Of a DNA stretch of 64,000 nt, positions 46,288 through 64,000 are shown one piece after another. The position numbers and the translations under genes are program-made. The notes under the pieces are model-generated. The model ran no database searches. It saw only the letters and a program-made list of their open reading frames with translations, and had not been told where the DNA came from. The DNA lies in NCBI GenBank assembly GCA_019775845.1, contig JADQAV010000002.1, positions 1,674,001 to 1,738,000 on the forward strand, written 5' to 3'. The stretch comes from Myrmaecium sp. VS I D KN 1. Taxonomy: Eukaryota > Ascomycota > Dothideomycetes > Valsariales > Valsariaceae. How positions within the stretch are numbered: position 1 is the stretch's first letter; the number at the start of each line of letters is the position of its first letter.

Positions 46288-48066
46288 GAAGCAGAGCAGA
46301 GAGGTGGTGGGGTGGAGGGGCGGAGGGGGTGGAGGGCGGAAGGTGGAAGGTGGGGAGGAGAGGTGGGAGCCGCCCCACTTCATGCAAGCAATGTGGGATC
46401 GTCAGGCGAAGCGAAGGGCCGGGGGGAGGTTTAGCAGGCATAAGGTACCTACTGTAGTAGTCCTGGTGGCTGCGAATGTGAATCACGATGCATCGGACAA
46501 CGCTTACGATTCAGGAGGTGATCAGCAGCAATGGAGGGGAGAAAGAGGCGAAGAAGGCAAAGGAGGGATATTTGGAACGATGTCTACCTGCCTTACGGAA
46601 ATAGCAAGGTGAATGCAGAAAGAACGAGGGAAGGGAAGAAGACCGGATGTGCCCGTCCGCCGCTCTCGTTGGACGGGACGGGAGGCGTTCACACGCTCGG
46701 GCTGGGCAGGGGCCAAGGCAAAGATGGAAAAGAGGCGGGGCGGGACAGTCCGGGGAGGCGTTCCCGGGGCGTTTCGGGGCGGCTCGCGTACGGATTTAAA
46801 CGGGCGACTAGCCGCAAGACGCGGGTCATCCTGTCGATCCCCGCCTAGGTACACACAGACACGTCTTGTACGCGTCGTGCTGACTCTGACTGATGCCTTG
46901 TACATACCGCGTCCCCCTTCCTCTCTCCGGGTCAGTATGTCAGTTGACGAGAGCAGTGATGGCAAGTGATGGTATCGTAGAAGATCCAGAGTGAGTACGG
47001 TATTAGATATACAGGTAGTAGTATAGGTGCTCGATCTATTGTACTATCCATCAGACCTGTCGGACCGTACCTGATGTACTAGTACCTGATCACTGCATGG
47101 CAACCCAAAAGAAAACAAAGCAAAACAAACCTGGAAGCGATCTCAGTTTTCACGGTTGGGCCGATCGGACGGCCCGAAACGGCAGGCTCGTGCGTCCTAG
47201 CTCCGACAGGGACATAACTTTCTTACCGATCCGCTAACGTTTTTTAGTGAGAGAAAGAGAGAGAGGCAATCCCCACCTGGATGCATGCAAGTTGTGTGAA
47301 CCGTCGGCCTTCACGACTGTCCAACGGCTGCCGACCGATACAGTAGTATCAGTAGTCATTGGTAGTAGGAGACATCGGTATATGCAAGAGTGAGTGGGTA
47401 GTGGATCACAGATATCGGTATATGGATTCCGTTACCGTACATAATACAGCCTTGGCTACTACCTGGCAGGCAGGCACGTCATCCCAAACCCCCCACCTCC
47501 CTCCTTCCACGGACTCTTGGCCGCCAAACATGTTTACTCCCAACCTTGACCTCGAATCCTTCCGCTTCCCCTTCCCTCTCATTGGCTCACCTCTCAGGCA
47601 CCAAAGGGCGGAGAGACGTCCTCCTCCCTATCTCCTTCCTTAATAGTGTTGTACCTTACCATACGGACCTCTCTATCTCTCTGTCATCCTGGCTGCCTGG
47701 TCTCGGGTAACCATCTCAAGCTCGCATCCCGATCTCCCAGCATCCCGGCATCTTCCTACCTACCATCCCACCTCATGCAATCCTGAACCGACCTCCACCA
47801 CTGCCGCGTCGGCTTGCCCTGCTCTTCTGCATTGCTCGACCCTGCAGCACCTCTCTTTTTTTTTCTTCAGTCACACACATTCTCTCTCTTTTCACCTCTT
47901 CAACTACCACCGTCTCTACCTACACCTCCTCCCCCTCCTCCCCGCGCCATCGGTCTCGCGCTTTCAGTCCAGGTGACGCCGCTCGTCCCTGCTGAGACCG
48001 TCTCCCTCCTCCCTCTCTGCGTAGCCGCATTCCCTCACGACCGAACGCTTTCTCTCCCTCGCGGCC

Positions 48067-50287
48067 ATGTTCGCTGCAGACTCGTCCTGGGCCGACGCTG
48101 GTGCGGAGAAGGTCGGAGAGAGGAAGGAGCGGAAGCGACGGGAGGCCCGGGAGGGTTCCGTCCGAAGTGGGAAGAGCGGCAAGAGCAGCAAAAGCTCGAG
48201 CGGCAAGAGCTCCCAGTCCAGCTCCACCGCGGGCTCGTTCTCCTTCCTCTCCAGCAGGAAGTCCAAGCACAAAGCCTCCTCGTCCTCTTCTTCCGTGAGT
48301 TCGGCCACCTCCAGCGCGACCACGAGAACGACGGCGACAGCGACGGCGCCGACAACGTACAATGCCACGGAACGCCCGACGAAACCGAAGCATACGCCCA
48401 TCCGGATCGACTACCCCATCCCCGAGCACCCGGACGACACCGCCCTCGAGGTCACCTGCACCTTCATGACTCCCGCCTGGACGAGCGACTCCTCCCAGTC
48501 TTCCCTCCCGGAACCCCTTACTCCCGCCTCGCCCATGTCCCGCAGTCCGGGCGGTCAGACTCCCCCGCGTCGGCCGTCGGACGTCTCCCCTGGTAAGTCG
48601 GCCGCTTCATTCGGGAAGCACCTCTGCTCACCTTCCCGCAGGTACCCCTGGCAATCAGAGCATCCCATCCGTCTCCTCCGTCATCGACGAATTCGCTTTC
48701 CATCAAGACATCGGCCCCGACTCCTTCGTCAACAAGGTCTTGACCCGCTCCGAAGACGTGTGTACATACTCTTCCATCCCCTTCCCTCCAGCGCTGACGT
48801 CCGCCCAGGTCTTGCTCGCCGATGCCTGTTCTCTATACAGCGAGGATCGAGACTTCTACGACAGATGTCTCTCCCACGAGAGAACCCTCACGAATACCTC
48901 TAGGTTCTCCTGGGACACGGCCACGTCGTATGCCGTCTCCGTCCAAGGCCCTCTCAACTCGGACGAGATCCGTGAGCAGGAAGAGGTGACCAGGGAGTTT
49001 GCGGCCTTCAACTTCGACGACAAACGACCCGTCACTCCGGCCACGACGGGGACGGACGGTTCCCCTGCGCGGCCGCGTCCCTCCCATTCACCGTGGAGTT
49101 CCACCTCCCCTGATATCAAGCGTCCCTTCACCGACAGCCCAGCTGGGTCCATCCGCCGACATCGAGACTCCGTGATCCTTGCGCCGATCGAGGAAGACGA
49201 GCCGGAACGCCTCTGTTCTGCCGCTCCCCGACATGATGAAGTCATCTCGCCGCCCCCGAAATCGCCCCGTCGTCGCTCCAAGTGGATTCGCAACTCCATT
49301 GAGGCTGCCAATTACGACAACATCCGACAATCGATCCTGCTGGAGCAGCCGCAAGATGGCTTCGAGGAAGCCCAGTCGCTCACCCATTTCGAGCTCTTTC
49401 TCAAGCACATGGAGCAGCTCGGAGCGGAGCATCTGCTCTCCCGCCTCCGGAAGTACGGCTCCCTTAATCTTTCTAGCTCTCCAGATCCAGACGCGCGACT
49501 CGAGTTCCACCTCTGGCTCCTGACGGCCTTGCACCTCCCCTTCCTCTCCCGCTACGCCGTCGCCCCGCCTTCCATCGCCCCGCTCGCGCCCTTCCCCCTC
49601 CAGAGCCAGCAGCCGCAACAGATCCTCTCCCTCCACTCCTCTCCGGCCACGCTCCTCCAACTCTCGGCCAAGTACCCACACGCCCGGATCCATCACCTGC
49701 CGGCCCCGAGCAAGCCATCTTTGCCCGAGAGCTTAGCGAGCTCCCTGCCGTCGAACATCACGCTCTTCCCCGCCCCCCTCTCCTTGCAGCACCTCCCCAG
49801 CCAATCCTTCACTCAGGCCCACTTCTCCGCTTTCTCCTCCCTCCCGTTCGCCAGCATGCTTGACACGCTGGGCGAGATCCACCGGCTGCTGCGGCCCGGC
49901 GGCGAGGTCGAGCTGCGCGCGGTGGACGCGCTGCCGGACCCGAGTCTCACCGGACCCCGGTTGGCCGGCTGGATGCGCCGGCACCTCCTGCCCGCGCTAC
50001 GCACCGCGGGCGTGCCGCCCCGGCCGAGCCGCGGCCTCAGCGAGGGCGTCTGGGACGTCGGCTTCGAGGTCAAAGCCGAGGGCGGCTGGAAGGTGCCTCT
50101 CCTTCCCGGCGAGGTCGACGAACTCGGGGAGGAGGTGAGCAAGGGGCTGTGGGCGTGCGAATGGGGCGCTCACGTGCTGGAGAGCGCCGACGGCGCCTTC
50201 TGGTGGGAGGACGAGGGGATCTGGGAGGAGTGCGCGGTGCTGGGAACCGCGGTCGTGGTAGGTTGGGTGAGGGGTGTCAGGGATTGA
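48067..50287 (+). CDS. methyltransferase-fold protein with degenerate SAM site
   Basis: Exons 48067-48592, 48642-48757 and 48809-50287 join to 706 residues. The first ~190 residues are Ser/Lys/Arg-rich and disordered. A conserved-looking block follows (VIDEFAFHQDIGPDSFVNKV, then LLADACSLYSEDRDFYDRCL), then another disordered stretch. The C-terminal ~270 residues follow the layout of a class I methyltransferase. ILSLHSSPATLLQLSAKYPH occupies the place of motif I, then a FTQAHFSAFSSLPF segment, and EIHRLLRPGGEVELR matches the usual post-motif region. The glycine-rich SAM loop (normally like DxGxGxG) is absent and no acidic residue ends strand 2, so catalysis is doubtful. I cannot name an orthologue. 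The 51-nt second intron is in frame and stop-free. Confidence 0.75.
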
Positions 50288-50809: not shown

Positions 50810-53800
50810 TCAACCCCGCCGAAACCGCCCGACAAGCCCCTTGATCGCGCCAAGCCCGCCGCCGCGGCCCTCCCGCTCCCGCTCCCGCTCCCGTTCCACG
50901 CGGTCCCGCTCAAGCCGGTCGCGCTCCTCCCGCCGTCGAGCCCGACGACGCATCTCCCGCCGCAAGGCCTCCAGATCCTCGGCCTCGTCGGCCCCCGCGC
51001 TGGCGCCGACGCCCGGCCCGTCGAGCACGGTGCCCACGAGCGGCGGCGGCAGGGGCGGGTCCGCGTTCACGCTGTGCACCCACGAGCTCGTCTTGTCCTT
51101 GCCGCCGCCGTTGGCGGTGCCGGTCGCGCCGAAGAAGGGCGCCGGGCCCGCGGCGTGTGTGTTGTCGACCTCCCGATCGAAGGCGCCGTCCCCGACGGCG
51201 GGCACGCCGCCCGTCATGTAAGGGGAGTAGTGATGGTGGGAGGGGTCTTGGACCGGGCCGCCGGCGGGCACCTGGTGGGAGCGGCGGCGGTGGGAGCGCC
51301 GACGGTCGATGCCGCGGTCGTCGCCTTTCTCCTCGGCGTCACGGTGCTTGCGCGTCGAGCGACGTCGGTCCAGGTCCGGGTGCGCTCGTCTCCGCTCCTC
51401 GCGTTCACGTTCACGTTCACGGTCCCGATCCCGATCCCGCACTTTGGGCTCCTTCGCGGCTCGAGTGTACTCGCGACGGCGCTCGCGTTCGCCGTGGCGC
51501 TCCCGGCGTTCGTCCACATCGGCGGCCGCGCCGTTCTCCTGGACGCGGTCGTGCGTGCGTCCGTTGGCGTGCGCGTACGCATGCCCGTTGACGTGTTGTT
51601 CCCCCTTCGCCGCACGCCGGGCCCGCTTCTCTTCCAGCCTTCTAGCCTCCTCATCGACCAGCTTCTCGCGATGCGGTCTCTCCTTGTCTCTCCGCTCCGC
51701 TCGTCTCCGGGCTCGTGCATCCTCACGCTCCACTTCCTTTGGCCGTCTCCGGGACGCTTTGTCCTCGGCAGGCATCGGCGCCGGCACGGGCTCCTGGGGT
51801 CGAACATTCTCCACGTCAACTCCACCGTCGCCATACTCGTACATCTCTCGCATCTCCGTCTCGGCCTGCTTTCGAGCCCGCCTCTCCGCCCGCCGCGCTT
51901 CCCGTGCCTCCCTCTCGGCTGGATCGCCGTCGGCGTCCGTCTCCGCGCTTCCGCCGCTCTTGCTCGCCCGCCGCCTCTCGCCCGCGACATCGGCAGCCAC
52001 GCCCTCATCGCTCATATGTCTGCTAGACTTGTGGGAATCAGGGACACGCCTGCGGCTGCGCTCGAGATTGTCAGGGTCCGCATGCTTGTCCTCTCTTTCT
52101 CGTGTTCTCTCTCTTCCCCTTTCTTTGTGTTCGCGACGGCGACTTCCCTGCAAGCCCTCATCATCCGTGACAGGCACCGTGGCATGAGTTCTCTTCACGC
52201 TCCTCTTCCTCCGGGCTGCATCATCTTCACTATCTACTACGGCGCGCTTGCGCACACCTCTCGGGTCGACTTCCGCGTTGCCTCCACGTCGGTCGCCGCC
52301 GCTCGCTTTGCCAAACAAACCACCGAACACGCCGCCGAGGGTGCCGAAACCGTTCTTCATGTTCGCGGCCGTGGTGGTTGCCCTCTTCATCGCGGGCCGG
52401 ACTGGGGAACCCCCGCCCCGAGTTCCCGCACCCAGGAATGTGTTCCTTCTGATCGGACCGTCAGGACGAGCGTGACGATGCTCTGGAGCGAAATCCCTGG
52501 CTTTTACTGCGCCACCGTCGCGGTCTCGGTGACTGGGGTGACTGCTGCGATGGCTGCTGCGATGACTGTGCCCATGGCTTTGCGGAGGCTCCACCATTGC
52601 GATATCGTCATCCGGGCCTGATGCCATCACGATATCCGGCCCCGAGCTAGGCCGATCGCCGTTCGCCTCGACGATGACAGGCGAGTCAGCCGCGAGGTCA
52701 GTTGGATCCACATGTCTCGAGCGATGGCGAGAGGCGTGCCTGGACCGGCGGTGGTCACGGCGTTGCTGTCGTTCGGCTTCGCGGGCGCGTTCGAACTCGC
52801 TGTCTTCTTGGCGGGGTTCGTGGTCACGTTCCCGGGTATGTCGGTCTCGTCTGCGCCGTGCAGGAGGCAATGGCTCATCCTCGTGATCGGATATGGGAGC
52901 CGGAGCGTCAGGTGACGCCTCCACGTAGACGACATCGTCGTCATCAGGGAGAGGATACGCGTCGGGGACGACTGTCATGAACTCGTAATCAGTTACCCGC
53001 TGCGACTGACATACTACTACCTCGTGGTAGTCACGTCGGACGCAAAAAGAAAAGCAACAACTCACCTCGTGCCCTTCCCTTATCTTCCCTCTTCCTCGCC
53101 GCTTTTTCCTCGCGCTCCCTTCCCTTATGCCCGTCACGATGACCATCGCGTTCCGCATCGTGGCTGGCTCGGTTCCGGGCCTCTCGCTCTCGTTGAGCTC
53201 TCCTCTGGTCCCGTTGCAACTGCCGCGTCCTCTCCCGCTCCATCTCCTTGATCCTGTCCCGCTCGATCTCCACCATAGCTGCTTCGCCTAACACCCGCGC
53301 GGCTTTGCTGGTCCGCAAAGCTCTCCGCTCAGCCTCCACCGCGGGATCTTCCGCCGTATCGGCGCCCACGTCCATACTCGGTCTCCGGTAGGAGCTCGTC
53401 CGACCTTTGCCGCTCCGACTCCGACTGATCGCGATCCCGCCAAAGCCAGAGCTGCCTCGTCGCAGCTTCGGTGCAGGTGTTGCCTTCTCTTGTTGTAGGT
53501 GCACTTCCTCCGTCGCACTCCTCTCACCCTCCTTCTCCCTCTCCTTCTCCTTCTCCTTGTCCTTCTCCTTGTCCTTCTCCTTATCCACCTCCTTCCGTTC
53601 GCGGTGACTCTTGCTCCGCTGGGGCGTCATCGTCGCAATCTTCGTCTTGGTCGGCGTGGCCGTCGCCCAGAAACCCCAACCATTAGATGTCTGCTTGGAG
53701 TCCTTGGCGATCCGATGTCGTTCTTTCCGCTCGGGTTTGGGTAGGGACGTGTGTTCATCTTCACCAGGTGGGGGTCGAGGCGGTGAAGGTTCGTCCACGT

Positions 53801-56800
53801 CGGCCGGTGCAGCTTCGGGCGCATGCTCCGCACTTTCCGGAAAGGGTTCTGCAACCGCCGGCGTTGCCCCATCTTCTTCCATGTGCGGTGGAGGAACTTC
53901 TTCTGACATAATATACCTCTCCTTGTCCTTCACTTTTTTCTCCTTCCTCTTTTTCTTTGTAGCGGTCGCCGTGAAGTCTTCGGCAGCCTCCGGCTCGAAA
54001 ACAACCGGAGCAGCGAAGTCCGGGATGACCAGGACGGGTTCAGTCTCAGCAGGCGGTTCAGTCTCGGGAAGCGGCTCGGCTTCCGCGGTTATTCCGATCG
54101 GCGGCGGCGGAGGCGGAGGGAGCGCAATCTCATGAGCGTCCCAATAGTTGTCCTCGGTGGGAAAGCCACCTGGCACGGGTGTGCTCACGTGCGGGGCCTC
54201 TTCCGGCGGCGGTTGTGTTTCGGGCTCCCGCACGTGCTCGAACTCCGGCGGAGGGGGCTCGGGTACGACAACGACTTCCGGTTCCCACGCCGGCTCCTTG
54301 TCCCGGGAGGACTTCTTCGTCTTCTTCTTGTCCTTCCTGGAGAGCCTCTTCGGGGGCACTGGCTCCGGTTGGACGACGGGCGTGAGTTTGAGTTTGGATC
54401 TGGGTTCGGGTTCGGGGTCAGGTGGAAGCTCGGGGTGAAACTCGATTTCAGCTGGGATCGGTGGTGCCTCAGGCGCAGCATAAGCATCGGCATAAGCATA
54501 AGCATCAGCATCAGCAAGCCTCGGTGCTTCCTCGTCAATGACAACCTGAACGACGTGCGCCGCCGCCGCAGCGGCGGCGGCGGCGGCCGCCTTCTTCTTA
54601 TCCTTCTTCGAGAGCTTGCCTGAGGTTTTGCTCTCCTTCGCGCGCGTGCCGCGGCCCCTGCCGTCGTCCAACGGCGGATCAACAGCTGGCTCCACGCTGG
54701 CCGTGTCCGGTCCGACGACCACCAAGTCATCGTCGGCCGCGACACCAGTGACCTGGTCCGGGTCCTCGGCTCCATTGGCCGCAGGTTCGGCTGGTCCCGC
54801 TGCAGGCTCCCCTGCCGATCCCTCCTGATTCGTCGCGGCGGCCGGGTCGGTCTTGGCGAGGCCACCCCACCCCCACCCCCCACTGTCCCCACCGAGCTTG
54901 GTCTTCCTCAGGCCGACACCCCACATGATCCCCCACCCACCCGGGGACTTGTCCTCCTTCGGTGCCTTGGAAGCGTCCAAGACGTCCTGCACCTCGTCCG
55001 CTGGCACGTTTTCCACCGCTGCGAGCAGATCTTCGTCCGTTGGCGGAGCAGCGGGTTCAGCTGGCGGCGGTGGCGGAGCAGCGGGCTCGGATGGCGGCGG
55101 CGGCGGCGGCGGCAAAAGAGTAGACTCATGCTGAGGCTCCCATGCTGGCTCTGGCTCCGGCTGTGGCTCCGGCTTTGGCTCCACCAAGACAGCCTTGTTC
55201 TTTTTCTTCGCCCTCCTCCGCTCCTTGGCACTCATTCCCGCATACGGATCCAGCGCTGGCCCTTCGTCAATGCTCTCCATGATCTCGTTCGGATCCAGCT
55301 CCGCTTCAGCGGGAGCGCCATGAGGGATTGCAGCTGCCTCTGCCTCCGCCGCCGCCGCCGCAGCAGCTTCAGCTTCAGCTTCCTCTATCCTCTTCCTCTC
55401 AGCTTCTTCCTCTTCTTCCCGTTTCTTTCTCTCCTCTTCCTCTTCTTCCCATCTCTTCCTCTCCTCTTCTTCCTCTTCCCATTTCTTTCTCTCTTCTTCC
55501 TCTTCTTCCCATTTCTTCCACTCCTCTTCCTCTTTCTTCCTCCTCTCCTCTTCCTCTTCCTCTTCCTCTTTCTTCCTCCTCTCCTCTTCCTCCTTCATCT
55601 CCTTTTCTTTCCTCAACCGCTCTTTCTCCTCCTTCCTCTCCTTCTCCTCGCGCTTTTTCTTCTCTTTGGCGGTCTCCTTCTTCTTCGAGACAAGGGGCGC
55701 GCTGAACAAAGCGCCCCATCCGCTCCCGCTCCCGCTCGAGCTTTTCTTGTCTTTCTTCTCCTTTTTCTCTTCCTTCTCCGGTTCAGGCTCAGGCTCGGGC
55801 TCGGGCTCAGGTTCGGGCTCGTGCACGACTTCGGGCTCTGGTTCTGGTTCCGGCTCCGGTTCCCATCCCCGGTCCGGCTCCTCTTCAGGCACAACCGCAA
55901 TGTCCGCCTCTGGTTCTAGCGCGTTCCCGCGCGGGACGTCCTCGATCAGTTTCGGGCCAGCATCCACCACGGGTTCCTCTGGCTCAGGCGGCGGGGTGGG
56001 TACCACGGGCGGCCAATTCTCTCCCACCTCGGCGACCTGAAACCCCTTGCCCTTCTTTTTCTTCTTCTTGCCGAGGCCGATGGTCCAGCCCGCCCAGCCC
56101 TCGTCGTCCTTCGTGTCGCCGTCGTCCACCGCGTCCGGCTCCACGACGACGGCGCCGTCGTTGCCCGCATCCGCATCCACCTCCACCACGTCCTTCCGCT
56201 CCACCCCGCCTTTCTTGCTCTTCTTGCCCTTCTTCGCGCCGCCGAACCCGGCCCACCCGCCCCATTCATCGTCCTCCTCTCGCGGCTCCCCCTCATCCAC
56301 GGCATCAGGCGCTTGCACAGGCGCGCTATCGAACCAGTCATCCTGCTTGCCCCAACCTGGAGCATCTGTCCAGCCATCCGGCTGCGCTCGGTTGGCCGGT
56401 TCCGGCTCCCGCTCCGAAGGCGGTGAGACCATGCTGTCTTTCTTTTTCGCATTCTTCATGGCCCTCCTCCTCTCTTTCGCGCTCATGCCCGCGTACGGAT
56501 CTCTAGGCTCCAGCTTAGGCTTTTGCACAACCATGAGTTCCCTCTGCGGCTCCGGCTCCGGCTCAGGCTCTGCGAGCACTTCAGGTTCAAGTGCCTGTGA
56601 GGCCTCCGGTTCTGGCTCGGCCGGTGGCTTGGGCTCTGATGGTTTCGGTACGAACACTGGCTCGGGCTCGAGTTCGGCGACAGCGTCGCCCTTCTTCTTC
56701 TTTTTAGCCTTCCTCTTTTCCTTTGCCGTCATGCCTGCGTATGGATCTACCAGCTCGGGTTCGGGATCTGCGCTTGGAGCTTCTGCTGGATGGGATTCCG

Positions 56801-58802
56801 GTTCCCACTGGTCCGAAGGTTTCAATTCTTCATCGGGTTCGGGTTCCGCCAGGACCTCCGGTTCCGGCTCGGGTGCCGGCTCTGGCTCCGGCTCCGGCGC
56901 TGCAGCCATCGCTGCCAGAGCATCGTCTTTCATTTTCTTCTTTACCTTCCTCTTCTCCTTGCTACTCATACCTGCGAACGGGTCCACTGGTTCCGGCATA
57001 GGCTCCGGGGCCGCTGGTTCCGGTTCGGGTTCGGCAGGCAATGCTTCCTTTTGCGGTTCCGGCTCGGATTGCGCAGGCACTGCCTCCTTTTGCGGTTCTG
57101 GCTCAGGTTTCGCGGGCGATGCCTCTTCTTGCGGTTTGGGCTCGGGTGCAGGTGCAGGGTCGGCTACTTTCTTCTTCTTCTTTTTGTCTTTCTTGTTGAT
57201 CGAGAAGAGACTCCACCCACCCCAACCCTCCTCTTCTTCCTTCTCCTCCTCTTCCTCCGCCACCGGCTCAGGTTCAGGCGCAGCTACAGCTGTAGTTCCG
57301 TCGCCTTTTCCCTTCTTGTCCTTCCTTGACGGATCGCCAAAGCTGGAATCCCAGGCGTTCGCACCATCCTTGACGTTTCCCTTGAGCGGACTGGAGACGG
57401 AGCTGCCAAGGTCGACTTTGAGCACCTCCTCTCCCTTGTCTTCCTTCTTTTTCTTGCTCCCCGCCGTGCCGCTCCCGAGACTCCACACACTACTTCCGGC
57501 GTTACCGTACGGTCCTGTAGCGGTATTGTCCGTGGCCCAGGCGCTCTTTCCAGCGCTCCACGCGCTGACACTGCCCCAGGGGAAGCTGAACGCGCTGCCG
57601 GAGGTTTTGCCGGTCTCCGTACCGCCTGATGAAGCGTCGACGCGGGGGCTTTCAGAAGTGTCGTGGAGGTCAATTTCTTCCATAGGTTCTTCGGGCACCG
57701 GAGGCGGAGGTGGTGGAGGTGGCGGAGGCGGTACGGGTTCCTCGTCTGCCTTCTGAAACGATCGTTAGCCAATCTGACTTAAGTTCCTCACGAGCTTGAA
57801 TAGAAGGGCCCGCGGAGCTCTGATCATATACATACCTTGCCCTTTTTCTTCTTCACTTTCTTCCCAACAGCCGTAGTGAAACCGGACCATTCATCCGCAT
57901 CACCATCTGCAGTATTCCAGGGATCCAATCGCGCCTGCTCCTCTTCGGCTTTCTTCCGAGCCTCTTCTTCCTCCGCTTCCCTCTTTTTTCGCTCTTCTTC
58001 TTCTTTCTCCTCCTCCTCCTTGCGTTTCCGCTCCTCTTCCTCCTTCTCCTTCTTCCGCTTTTCCTCGTCGTCATCTTCTCCATCGCCGCCACCCGCCCCA
58101 CCGTCTGCACCTCCTGCCCCGCCGCCGTTATTATCTCCGCCGGCGGGTCCGTCTCCGGACTTTTCCTCCAGCGCCCAAGGCGCGAGATTCTGATTGTTCG
58201 AAGCAGCAGAACGTTTCTGCGCCGCTGATTTCTTCTTCTTGGCATGGGAGCGGAGGTTCGATGGTTCGCCGTGGAAGTCGGGACGAGGAGGGTAGCACGA
58301 GGCGTCGGCTGCGGCAATGAAAGGAGTATACGGCGGTGGCAGTAATTCGAGTGCAGTGCCGCAACCGCAGGACTCGGCGAGGTTGGAGCTACTGGTGTAG
58401 TCTGGCGGGAGATCTTCGTACGCTGGAGTGCTTTCGAGAGCCTCGGAGTAAGTTGGAGGAGAAGCAAGCCGACCGGAAATCGCTGGAAGAGTCTAGGCCG
58501 AAGTCAGCACGAGAGTAGCGCGATGAAAATAACACATCCAGAGGTTAGAAAGATGGACGGAAGACTGTGTAGAGGTTTTAAAAGCCATAAAACATTGGTG
58601 CCCGGATTGGAAAATATCGCCGTACCAGTAGAGCCCACTCCGTTTGATCCCCCTTCGAACTCGCCCAGCTTGGCCGCTGGTCCGCAGTCGCGACACCCGA
58701 GTCGTCCTTATCCCATGCGATCCGCTTCGGATGTACCATGACGCGCTCAGTCAACGCGCCCGCATCTTCCCCTCCCCGGCTCTTCACGACCGCGGAAGCC
58801 AT
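50810..58802 (-). CDS. giant repeat-rich disordered protein with W-K modules
   Basis: On the minus strand, exons 58802-58626, 58492-57836, 57752-53066 and 53013-50810 join to 2574 residues (2554 if the ATG at 58739 is used). I do not recognise the family. Exon 2 has no Met codon but is open and in phase. About seven modules join a Trp-Gly core to a Lys run (DEWSGFTTAVGKKVKKKKGK; WGGWSLFSINKKDKKKKKK; WGGWAGFGGAKKGKKSKKG; WAGWTIGLGKKKKKKGKG). Four modules read DPYAGMSAKERRRAKKK or a variant, near 56984, 56747, 56504 and 55255. Glu-Pro tracts separate them. A long E/K/R helix (55380-55680) suggests a single alpha-helix or coiled coil. The C-terminal exon is Arg/Asp/Glu-rich with the conserved-looking DYEFMTVVPDAYPLPDDDDV. 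No enzyme domain, signal peptide or membrane helix is visible. A scaffold role is a guess. Confidence 0.72.
55420..55520 (-). repeat. 30-bp minisatellite coding a WEEEEEERKK repeat
   Basis: Within the giant gene the coding strand repeats a 10-codon unit (WEEEEEERKK and close variants) about three times. The TGG codons are spaced exactly 30 bp apart (plus-strand CCA at 55448, 55478 and 55508). The array sits in a longer Glu/Lys/Arg-coding tract. Confidence 0.8.
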
Positions 58803-62010: not shown

Positions 62011-64000
62011 TCAGCGGTCTCGCTCATCCCCAGCTCTCGCCAGCACCGCATCCGCCCGCTTTATCCGTGCGCGCCAGGCATCTTTCTCGCCGTACTCCGA
62101 CCTCGCGTCATGCAATCCCACGACCGCCTTTTGCATGCTCTCCACCAGATGGCTGATCAGCTCCTTGTCCATTTGCTCCAGGCCCGGCCTCTTGCTGGTG
62201 CTGCTCTTGGCCATCTGCTCCAACAAGATGGCGACGATCCGTGCGTTTGCCGATGCGAGCACATCGGGGGAAGTTGACGTTGAATCCTGCGCGGGCTCGT
62301 GTCGGTCGCCATTGGTCGAAGGCTGGATGGAAAGGGTCTTGTTGGGGTGCATGTAGAAGTTGATGGTGGACGAACTGCGAGTGCTGGGGCGTGACGTGGG
62401 GCGAGATGTTGGACGAGAGCTGGGGCGGTGGAATGTGTGAACTTGAGCTTGCTGGGCAACGAGCTGATAGGAGAAAGCCTCTAGTTGCTCGTTCTCATCT
62501 TCGGTATCACCCTCAGAGGAACTGAGGCTTTCGTTGGCAGTGGCAAAGGTTGCAACCGTCGAGATCGTGTCCGCACTAGGGTTCCGGTTGTGTAAGGATT
62601 GGCGGCGCCGCTGCTTTGGGGTTGTTTGAGGGGATTCTTCTTTTAATGGAAGGGGAGAGACGGCCCGGGTCGTTGCAACAGATTCGTCCGAGCTAACAGA
62701 GGCGGGCCGGCTCGCACGGTAGGTGCCCATCGCAGAATGAAGGAAAAAGTGCTCGTAATCGAATGCGTCCGGCCGATCTTCGTGGCGCTCAGGTGGTACC
62801 GCGGAAGCGTCTTCATAAATGCTTTCGCCAGCAACAGACTCGCTGTCATCGTCTGAACCGCCCTTGCCTCCTTCCACTTCATCTGCTTCCTCGAGTTTTT
62901 CCTGCTCCACATCCTCACGGCGGCTTTTGGTGGGTTGCGAAAGGTCATCGAGTTCATCGCGCAGGGGTCGTTTTTGCAAGTACTGCTCCTGGCCGTCGCG
63001 TCTGGGGCTTTGACCGGGCACAGCCAATTTGGTTTTATACCCAATGCCACCGTCCTGGCTAATTGGGCTTGTATTGTATGACTGGCTGCTGGCATACCAT
63101 TTCTCCGCGTCGGTAAATGGACTTGGTGTCCGCAACCGTTGCATGCTACGCCTCTTCATATTTTCCTCGGTGGCCCGTTCCTTCAGCATCGTCATACGGT
63201 TCTTCAAATCCGTCATCTGCGCCCGCAGATCACCAGTTCGGGAGGGCACTTTGCGCAAGGTGTGATTGGAAGGCTGTGTGGAATCATCCTCTGGAAGCGT
63301 ATCTAATGAACGAGGCGAAGCTGCAGAATCCGTAGGAGAACGTCGCAAGGAGGACTCGCGGCTGATGAAACTTCTTGTGGTGCCCCGCATGGCTTCCGCG
63401 CTCTTCGTTTCCCGCACCGAGGAGAGGGGCCGCGAGAAGTGTTGAGCCCCTGCCGGCGGCGACCAATATGAAGCGGATGATCCTAAAGCACTGGATGAGC
63501 GCATCTGCCTCATCGTCGGAGGCTTCTGGAGATTTTCAGGAAACGGAATCGAGGTCTCGCTAAGCACCCTGCTATGGTTTGTACTGCTGCCGTTCGATGT
63601 AGATGGGTGATATTTCTTTTGACGGGGTGGAATGAAACCGATGCCACCGTACATCTGTCGATCTCGCTCGCGCGCAGCGGCAATGTCCGATGGCATCTTC
63701 AGTGAACTGTAGGACGCGGTAGGAGGTCCAAGAAGCGAATGGCGAGCGCCCCGAAGGTTTCCTTCCATGAGCTGATTGCAGCAAGCCTAGTATAAGTCGA
63801 TCTGATCTGGCTAGACCAAGGACGGGTGCACTCACATTGAGTCTCTTCTTTGCGTTGGCTAAGATCATCTCCGCTCTTCGACTGAGCTCATCATTCCCGA
63901 AAGTATCTTGCGCCTCCTCTCCACTGTCCTCCCATTGCTCCATGTCTGTTTCTTCGTCGTTACCTAATATCTTTGGCAATGAACCTAATCGTCCGTAATC
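62011..64000 (-). CDS. conserved low-complexity protein, 5' end outside window
   Basis: On the minus strand, a first visible exon 64000-63836 (open at the window edge, reading DYGRLGSLPKILGNDEETDM) joins exon 63771-62011. The start codon lies beyond 64000, so the gene is partial here; at least 641 residues are visible. The protein is rich in Ser, Arg and Glu. Segments that look conserved are the helix DLRAQMTDLKNRMTMLKERA followed by RRSMQRLRTPSPFTDAEKWY, the acidic DDDSESVAGESIYED leading into DAFDYEHFFLHSAMGTYRA, and a helical C-terminus (LASANARIVAILLEQMAKSS). Such short conserved helices in disordered sequence are common in fungal cytoskeletal or polarity proteins. I cannot assign a function. 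A SRPTSRPTSRPST run is a small internal repeat. Confidence 0.75.

Follow-up and report, generated by a model that had tools for sequence, protein, structure and literature searches.

A predicted giant, largely disordered protein with eight recurring dipolar modules encoded in Myrmaecium sp. VS I D KN 1

The gene considered here lies on the minus strand, at 58802-50810, of a 64,000-nucleotide stretch of Myrmaecium sp. VS I D KN 1 (assembly GCA_019775845.1, contig JADQAV010000002.1, positions 1,674,001 to 1,738,000), hereafter the window, and encodes a predicted protein of 2,560 amino acids in which a compact, dipolar aromatic–basic module recurs eight times. Among described systems, the closest include giant or disordered proteins of fungi that possess Woronin bodies. 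Leashin (Lah), which tethers Woronin bodies in filamentous ascomycetes, is likewise giant and acidic, with a repetitive middle and Pro- and Glu-rich tracts; Lah proteins were predicted to contain 5,936-7,480 amino acids, or 10,821 for that of Neurospora, whose locus turned out to hold two genes, and the Neurospora repeats include sequences such as PEEVELPASP (PMC2690989). A C-terminal membrane-spanning region is needed for the septal targeting of Lah, according to PMC5345055. The SPA proteins of Neurospora and the SPP proteins of Aspergillus oryzae are also long and disordered, and many are free of domains; their disordered regions are reported to be biased towards Arg and His and to avoid Lys and Gly, and nine Pezizomycotina-specific SPP proteins without domains are listed (PMC10023807). 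Woronin-body and SPA genes are catalogued in PMC5309816.

Compared with Lah, the Myrmaecium protein is far shorter, carries other modules and has no membrane-spanning segment by simple hydropathy; membership of the Lah family was rejected on size, repeats and the lack of a membrane-spanning region. The comparison with SPA and SPP proteins, made by eye, is a partial match limited to residues 1641-2560 (Arg 18.7, His 4.3, Lys 5.0 and Gly 8.7%), and we regard the likeness as suggestive only.

Eight modules with a common layout

The gene model, derived from the sequence, consists of four exons (58802-58626, 58492-57836, 57752-53066 and 52971-50810, the last including the stop codon) separated by three introns (58625-58493, 133 nucleotides; 57835-57753, 83 nucleotides; and 53065-52972, 94 nucleotides), all with GT-AG borders. 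The chosen frame is free of stops in all four exons and yields 2,560 codons, which agrees with the single spliced gene of about 2,570 codons proposed in an initial annotation of the window; an alternative in-frame ATG seven codons upstream leaves the start uncertain by that amount. Inspection of the intron sequences revealed CTAAC in introns 1 and 2, which we take to be a branch-site-like motif. The coding evidence consists of this stop-free frame together with the contrast between synonymous and nonsynonymous differences among module copies described below, which concerns exon 3.

Both kinds of module share one layout, in which a short hinge of the form [WFY]-[AGS]-G-[MWF] is followed by a basic cluster. 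Four copies are of the W type: module 1, WSGF with a Lys cluster (57836-57889, residues 261-278); module 2, WGGW with KKDKKKKKK (57168-57224, residues 455-473); module 6, WGGW with Lys clusters (56211-56264, residues 775-792); and module 7, WAGW with KKKKKKGK (56046-56096, residues 831-847). The other four are of the DPYAGM type: module 3, DPFAGMSSKEKRKVKKK (56928-56984, residues 535-553); module 4, DPYAGMTAKEKRKAKKK (56691-56747, residues 614-632); module 5, DPYAGMSAKERRRAMKNAKKK (56439-56501, residues 696-716); and module 8, DPYAGMSAKERRRAKKK (55194-55250, residues 1113-1131). All eight were located by motif scans, and the DPYAGM copies were also assessed by substitution analysis and by counting the motif in the assembly. 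A second basic module occurring four times had been proposed, and DP[FY]AGM is indeed found at residues 535, 614, 696 and 1113. The seven proposed Trp-Gly and Lys sites (residues 261, 455, 775, 831, 957, 1218 and 1637) are likewise all present, although that at 957 (WGALF with KKK; 55653-55718, residues 957-978) is captured by a loose rule only and those at 1218 and 1637 are weak. Two basic elements further downstream, SKKDKKKA (54588-54611, residues 1326-1333) and SRKDKKKTKK (54309-54341, residues 1416-1426), begin with [STN]xK[DE][KR], as do the basic clusters of the DPYAGM modules.

To judge these counts, composition-preserving shuffles were used; for the Trp-based rules, four block sizes were taken, with 2,000 shuffles per size. 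A strict rule, W[AGS]G[WF] followed by KK..KK, identifies four distinct sites (residues 261, 455, 775 and 831; the script tallies five, since matches at 775 and 778 overlap). The loose Trp–Lys rule is satisfied at six places (residues 261, 455, 775, 831, 957 and 1637, with 1218 failing); the shuffles averaged 0.09-0.12 such places and never gave more than 2. Bare W..[WF] spacing occurs eight times against means of 1.02-1.90, a count reached in 1 of 2,000 shuffles at block size 60 and in none at the other three sizes. A unified pattern covering both kinds of module, [FYW][AGS]G[MFWLIVY] with at least five Lys or Arg in some ten of the next 22 residues, was devised post hoc with the sequence already seen; 9 of its 12 hinge matches qualify, and eight of these do not overlap (residues 261, 455, 537, 616, 698, 775, 831 and 1115), whereas the shuffles (3,000 per block size) gave means of 0.02-0.04 and a maximum of 2. 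The hinge matches at residues 1240, 1715 and 2056 have no basic cluster. The motif [STN]xK[DE][KR][KR] occurs nine times, four times in DPYAGM modules, once in W module 2 and four times elsewhere, against a shuffle mean of 0.22 and a maximum of 4 (block size 60). These counts lie far above chance expectation. The description of two separate modules in the initial annotation has to be modified, as the two kinds look like versions of one layout in eight copies, although an hhalign comparison of profiles from the four W and the four DPYAGM modules, with a probability of 6% across 3 columns, does not show that they share an ancestor.

Among the DPYAGM copies, the six pairwise comparisons over 16 codons gave proportions of differing synonymous sites (pS) of 0.72-1.03 and of differing nonsynonymous sites (pN) of 0.03-0.19; pooled, pS is 0.83 and pN 0.13, a ratio of 0.15. 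The 16-codon flanks taken at fixed offsets, which are not homologous alignments, gave pS of 0.84 and 0.74, pN of 0.64 on both sides, and ratios of 0.76 and 0.86. In the five-codon W cores, differences pooled over pairs affect 13.0 of 16.5 synonymous sites and 19.0 of 73.5 nonsynonymous ones. Because synonymous sites are saturated while the protein sequence is conserved, selection acts on the DPYAGM peptide itself; the copies are thus either old or the product of convergence, with the peptide retained.

Within its assembly, the DPYAGM module is also confined to this gene. In the assembly of 25,660,682 bases on 66 contigs, DNA encoding DP[FY]AGM occurs four times, always within the giant gene, and the reversed control pattern occurs once. 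A protein search of the assembly with one DPYAGM module returned the same four places (E up to 1), and a search with a W module pair returned only the self-match (E up to 5). Neither of these two queries nor exon 4 revealed a paralogue in this assembly. With exon 2, five matches other than itself appeared there, at E values of 0.009-0.056, and were taken as chance.

Charge layout, disorder and helical rods

When the eight modules are averaged, the ten residues that precede the hinge have a mean charge of -0.39 per residue, the hinge is neutral (0.00) and positions +9 to +13 reach +0.72. The upstream side is net acidic in seven of the eight (the exception, +1, being the copy at residue 698), and the downstream charge is +5 to +7 in every copy. 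Alternation of acidic and basic charge, which had been proposed for the modules, holds for residues 279-1640, where the charge-patterning z score is 7.1 against 300 shuffles, and does not extend to residues 1641-2560, which have no blocky pattern (z = 0.3). The protein carries a net charge of -107, and residues 279-1640 are acidic overall. Composition also changes along the chain: residues 1-1640 contain 10.5% Lys, 3.9% Arg, 2.3% Trp, 1.0% His and 7.1% Gly, and the Arg/His-rich C-terminal third (residues 1641-2560; 50810-53666, including intron 3), in addition to the percentages given above, contains 20.0% Asp plus Glu and a single Trp (0.1%).

On a disorder scale, 99% of 21-residue windows are disorder-like, and by simple hydropathy no segment resembles a transmembrane helix: the best 19-residue Kyte–Doolittle window scores 1.63 and starts at residue 1333 in the poly-Ala run, and none of the six best windows lies in the C-terminal third. 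Near the N terminus, three PPxY motifs (residues 71, 88 and 111; 58328-58459), found by motif count, are candidate ligands of WW domains. The shuffle mean for residues 1-165 is 0.051, and three were reached in 1 of 20,000 shuffles.

Two segments resemble single-α-helix rods on a custom score for opposite charges at i/i+3 and i/i+4. Rod 1 (52 residues, 198-249; 57923-58078), free of Pro and Gly, is identified by this score only, and rod 2 (114 residues, 970-1083; 55338-55679) by the score and an AlphaFold model. Prediction from the single sequence gave one unbroken helix over residues 969-1085, with block predicted local distance difference test (pLDDT) values of 90-97 falling to 77 and 70 at the ends, although the segment may instead form a coiled-coil dimer. 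Rod 2 therefore shows, by score and model, the long Pro- and Gly-free i/i+4 run and unbroken helix that define single α-helices, and both rods alternate runs of Glu with Lys/Arg runs, as do the ER/K linker proteins. In the giant protein the rods would be linkers, and the rest of its chain is unlike the familiar examples of such proteins. Rod 2 contains Trp at residues 1023, 1026, 1036 and 1046. Within it, at 55405-55611 on the minus strand, runs a ten-residue repeat of the form W-E6-R-K/R-K, with Trp every ten residues (1026, 1036 and 1046).

For proteins of this kind little weight can be given to single-sequence models, that of rod 2 included. Elsewhere, such models place a short helix at residues 1120-1129 of module 8 (block pLDDT 77) and render the C-terminal 196 residues as coil except for helices at 2374-2388 (low confidence) and 2502-2543 and a tail at 2546-2554 (pLDDT 63). 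The helix at 2502-2543 (50864-50989) is charged, reaches a pLDDT of 97 and is followed by the tail, a basic and hydrophobic peptide.

A possible sticker-and-spacer scaffold and its alternatives

The reading that we tentatively favour is that of a giant, almost wholly disordered, self-associating multivalent scaffold with eight dipolar stickers, most likely cytoplasmic. The initial annotation had suggested a multivalent scaffold or condensate-forming protein, and the recurring modules and charge blocks fit the former, although residues 1641-2560 are without blocky charge. It did not mention the shared layout of the two kinds of module, the PPxY cluster, the two rods or the switch from Lys to Arg near residue 1640. 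Each sticker would comprise an acidic or Glu-Pro approach, an aromatic-Gly hinge of compact form ([WFY]-[AGS]-G-[WFM]) and, after it, a cluster of Lys and Arg; in the DPYAGM type this cluster opens with [ST]-x-K-E as a helix cap and probably forms a short basic helix. We infer that stickers may join head to tail, in the same molecule or across molecules, with the acidic-aromatic half of one meeting the basic half of the next. The Glu-Pro and Pro tracts would act as flexible spacers and the two rods would set distances. The N-terminal PPxY cluster may bind a WW protein, for example an Rsp5/HulA-like ligase, through which the assembly could be regulated or removed, and the C-terminal third could provide a second cohesive region or one that binds nucleic acid or membrane. 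The likeliest site would be the hyphal cytoplasm, with the septal pore and the cell cortex as first candidates. A mechanistic analogy is offered by the Lys boxes of eIF2-beta and the acidic-aromatic boxes of eIF5 and eIF2B-epsilon, which are interacting halves; unlike in those proteins, both halves here lie within one module of one chain, and homology is not claimed.

A bolder proposal, which we consider doubtful, is that the eight modules constitute an unlisted peptide interaction module, whose hinge joins an acidic arm to a basic one, with W and DPYAGM versions that differ in specificity, in a rod-braced, protein-only, self-assembling network that possibly forms a septal plug or cortical gel. 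Disordered scaffolds of fungi are hard to recognise, since their sequences drift, and readable stickers under protein-level constraint would supply defined residues for testing how such scaffolds assemble. If the protein is septal, it would add a component to the machinery, still poorly understood, by which hyphal cells are isolated.

Several points weigh against the scaffold reading, among them the post hoc origin of the unified pattern, the non-homologous flanks used in the substitution analysis and the unsupported homology of the two kinds of module, all given above. Residues 1-1640 are rich in Lys, unlike the SPA and SPP regions, which are reported to avoid Lys and Gly (PMC10023807). Nuclear signals could reside in the Lys runs and in a bipartite basic cluster that inspection by eye places around residues 2081-2101, and the unsegregated Arg mixed-charge make-up of the C-terminal third is one that is associated with speckles in human cells (PMC9324279). 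In addition, by synonymous codon preference, some antisense frame outscored the coding frame in six of six segments; at face value this speaks against the frame rather than for it, but the score was trained on six frames of the window, which themselves reached only 0.02-0.10, and because the bias is so weak the test was given no weight.

The strongest rival, because the last third has an Arg mixed-charge composition, is a nuclear or nucleolar scaffold, in which the Lys runs would be localisation signals and the C-terminal third would drive entry into speckles or the nucleolus. We consider this unlikely. In human HeLa cells, Arg mixed-charge domains with adjacent opposite charges go to nuclear speckles and blocky ones to the nucleolus (PMC9324279). 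The many Lys clusters of the giant protein, and its C-terminal third, which mixes Arg with Asp and Glu without segregation much as speckle proteins do, agree with a nuclear destination. By contrast, residues 1-1640 differ from speckle proteins in being rich in Lys, Glu and Pro with segregated charges, residues 279-1640 are acidic overall, Pfam shows no nuclear, RNA-binding or other domain, the PPxY cluster would point to partners with WW domains in the cytosol, and the speckle and nucleolus rule was established in human cells.

It is improbable that the protein is low-complexity bulk comparable to the repetitive middle part of Lah, a flexible element used as spacer, tether or brush, with modules that are by-products of repeat expansion and have no binding role. 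The strong compositional bias would fit such bulk, as would the window's tandem-repeat rows, which overlap and of which 23 of 28 fall in the gene, and the family matches of exon 3, which are to low-complexity models only (PF05887 and NF033845). However, the module counts exceed those of the shuffles, and this explanation is disfavoured because the DPYAGM copies are constrained, being synonymously saturated yet conserved in protein sequence, unlike the products of recent slippage.

Highly improbable, in our estimate, is an adaptor for an Rsp5/HulA ligase or the endocytic machinery, with PPxY recruiting the ligase, DP[FY] binding the ears of coat adaptors and the basic helices binding membrane. 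The three PPxY motifs within residues 71-114 accord with this role, as does a frame elsewhere in the genome that encodes three WW domains; against it, Pfam shows no arrestin- or ENTH-type domain, and conservation extends beyond DP[FY] into AGM-[ST]xKE, exceeding the needs of a simple DPF/DPW ligand.

Finally, it is exceedingly improbable that exon 4 is transcribed separately, as a unit of its own: composition differs at the two ends of the protein and an unspliced exon 3 frame would reach a stop after 11 codons of intron 3, but removing this 94-nucleotide GT-AG intron restores the frame, and the switch from Lys to Arg near residue 1640 sits within the uninterrupted exon 3 frame and is therefore not a gene border. 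A scan for bacterial-type promoters near intron 3, which is weightless for a fungus, found nothing.

Relatives, host genome and neighbouring frames

When the four exons were scanned separately against Pfam and NCBIfam, nothing exceeded the cut-offs. In Pfam, exons 1 and 4 gave no match at all, exon 2 gave eight weak matches (E 0.023-0.89), all below the cut-off, and exon 3 gave one low-complexity match (PF05887, 23 bits against a cut-off of 100); the single NCBIfam match, also of exon 3, was likewise to a low-complexity model (NF033845, 30.1 against 999). Exon 3, the only exon compared with PDB sequences, matched none of them. Three scans of viral contigs, with exon 2, the DPYAGM alignment and exon 4, returned no relative, nor did prokaryotic genome contigs for the C terminus; because the collections scanned were viral and prokaryotic, this absence says little. 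In the prokaryotic contigs, the DPYAGM alignment matched one frame, from a planctomycete, in which DPYAGMSEKEK occurs once and no further module is present; this match was rejected as chance. That frame (L014:4554-5225) is of FHA type by eye, and across 22 residues its single VDPYAGMSEKEKLQAKARKK stretch shows 64% identity with the fungal module.

Topic-based literature searches listed no description of a protein with such a layout, and five module strings looked for in the texts of papers matched none; these outcomes show only absence from those listings and those texts, respectively. The statement that there is no described family thus stands for Pfam and NCBIfam models over cut-off, although unannotated fungal orthologues may well exist and are likely in many fungi. 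Novelty accordingly rests on family libraries, topic listings and the motif-string search.

The genome contains 13 WW-domain matches, of which 10 exceed the cut-off. A single 406-residue frame holds three of these domains and presumably resembles an Rsp5/HulA ligase. Another open frame, of 671 residues (L016), carries a lone WW domain (PEGWIAHIDPNSGQYYYIHLPTQSTQWEFP) amid sequence rich in Pro and Ser; we take it to be possibly a septal protein of the SOFT/PRO40 type. The HEX-1 gene (G000:C38; L028:661-1722) ends in SRL and matches the Woronin body major protein with an E value of 8.2e-85. The host is therefore a Woronin-body fungus in which Woronin bodies are expected, a trait that reveals nothing specific about the giant gene. 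In this HEX-1, a long His- and Ser-rich stretch separates the start from the conserved part. The Nup120 of this genome has matches to two known Nup120 chains, at E values of 4e-24 and 3e-15.

Around the giant gene, open frames at 48025-50287 on the plus strand converge on it across about 520 bases; they have a Ser/Lys-rich start and, towards the end, a stretch, LLRPGGEVEL, that by eye looks methyltransferase-like, and no Pfam match at 1e-4. Upstream, at 62014-63786 on the minus strand, lies a 591-residue open frame, also with no Pfam match at 1e-4. Opposite exon 3, the plus strand carries two long open frames (56041-57756, 571 residues; 54624-55919, 431 residues), which probably arise because the coding strand is repetitive and rich in purines; the AT skew of the plus strand is near -0.39.

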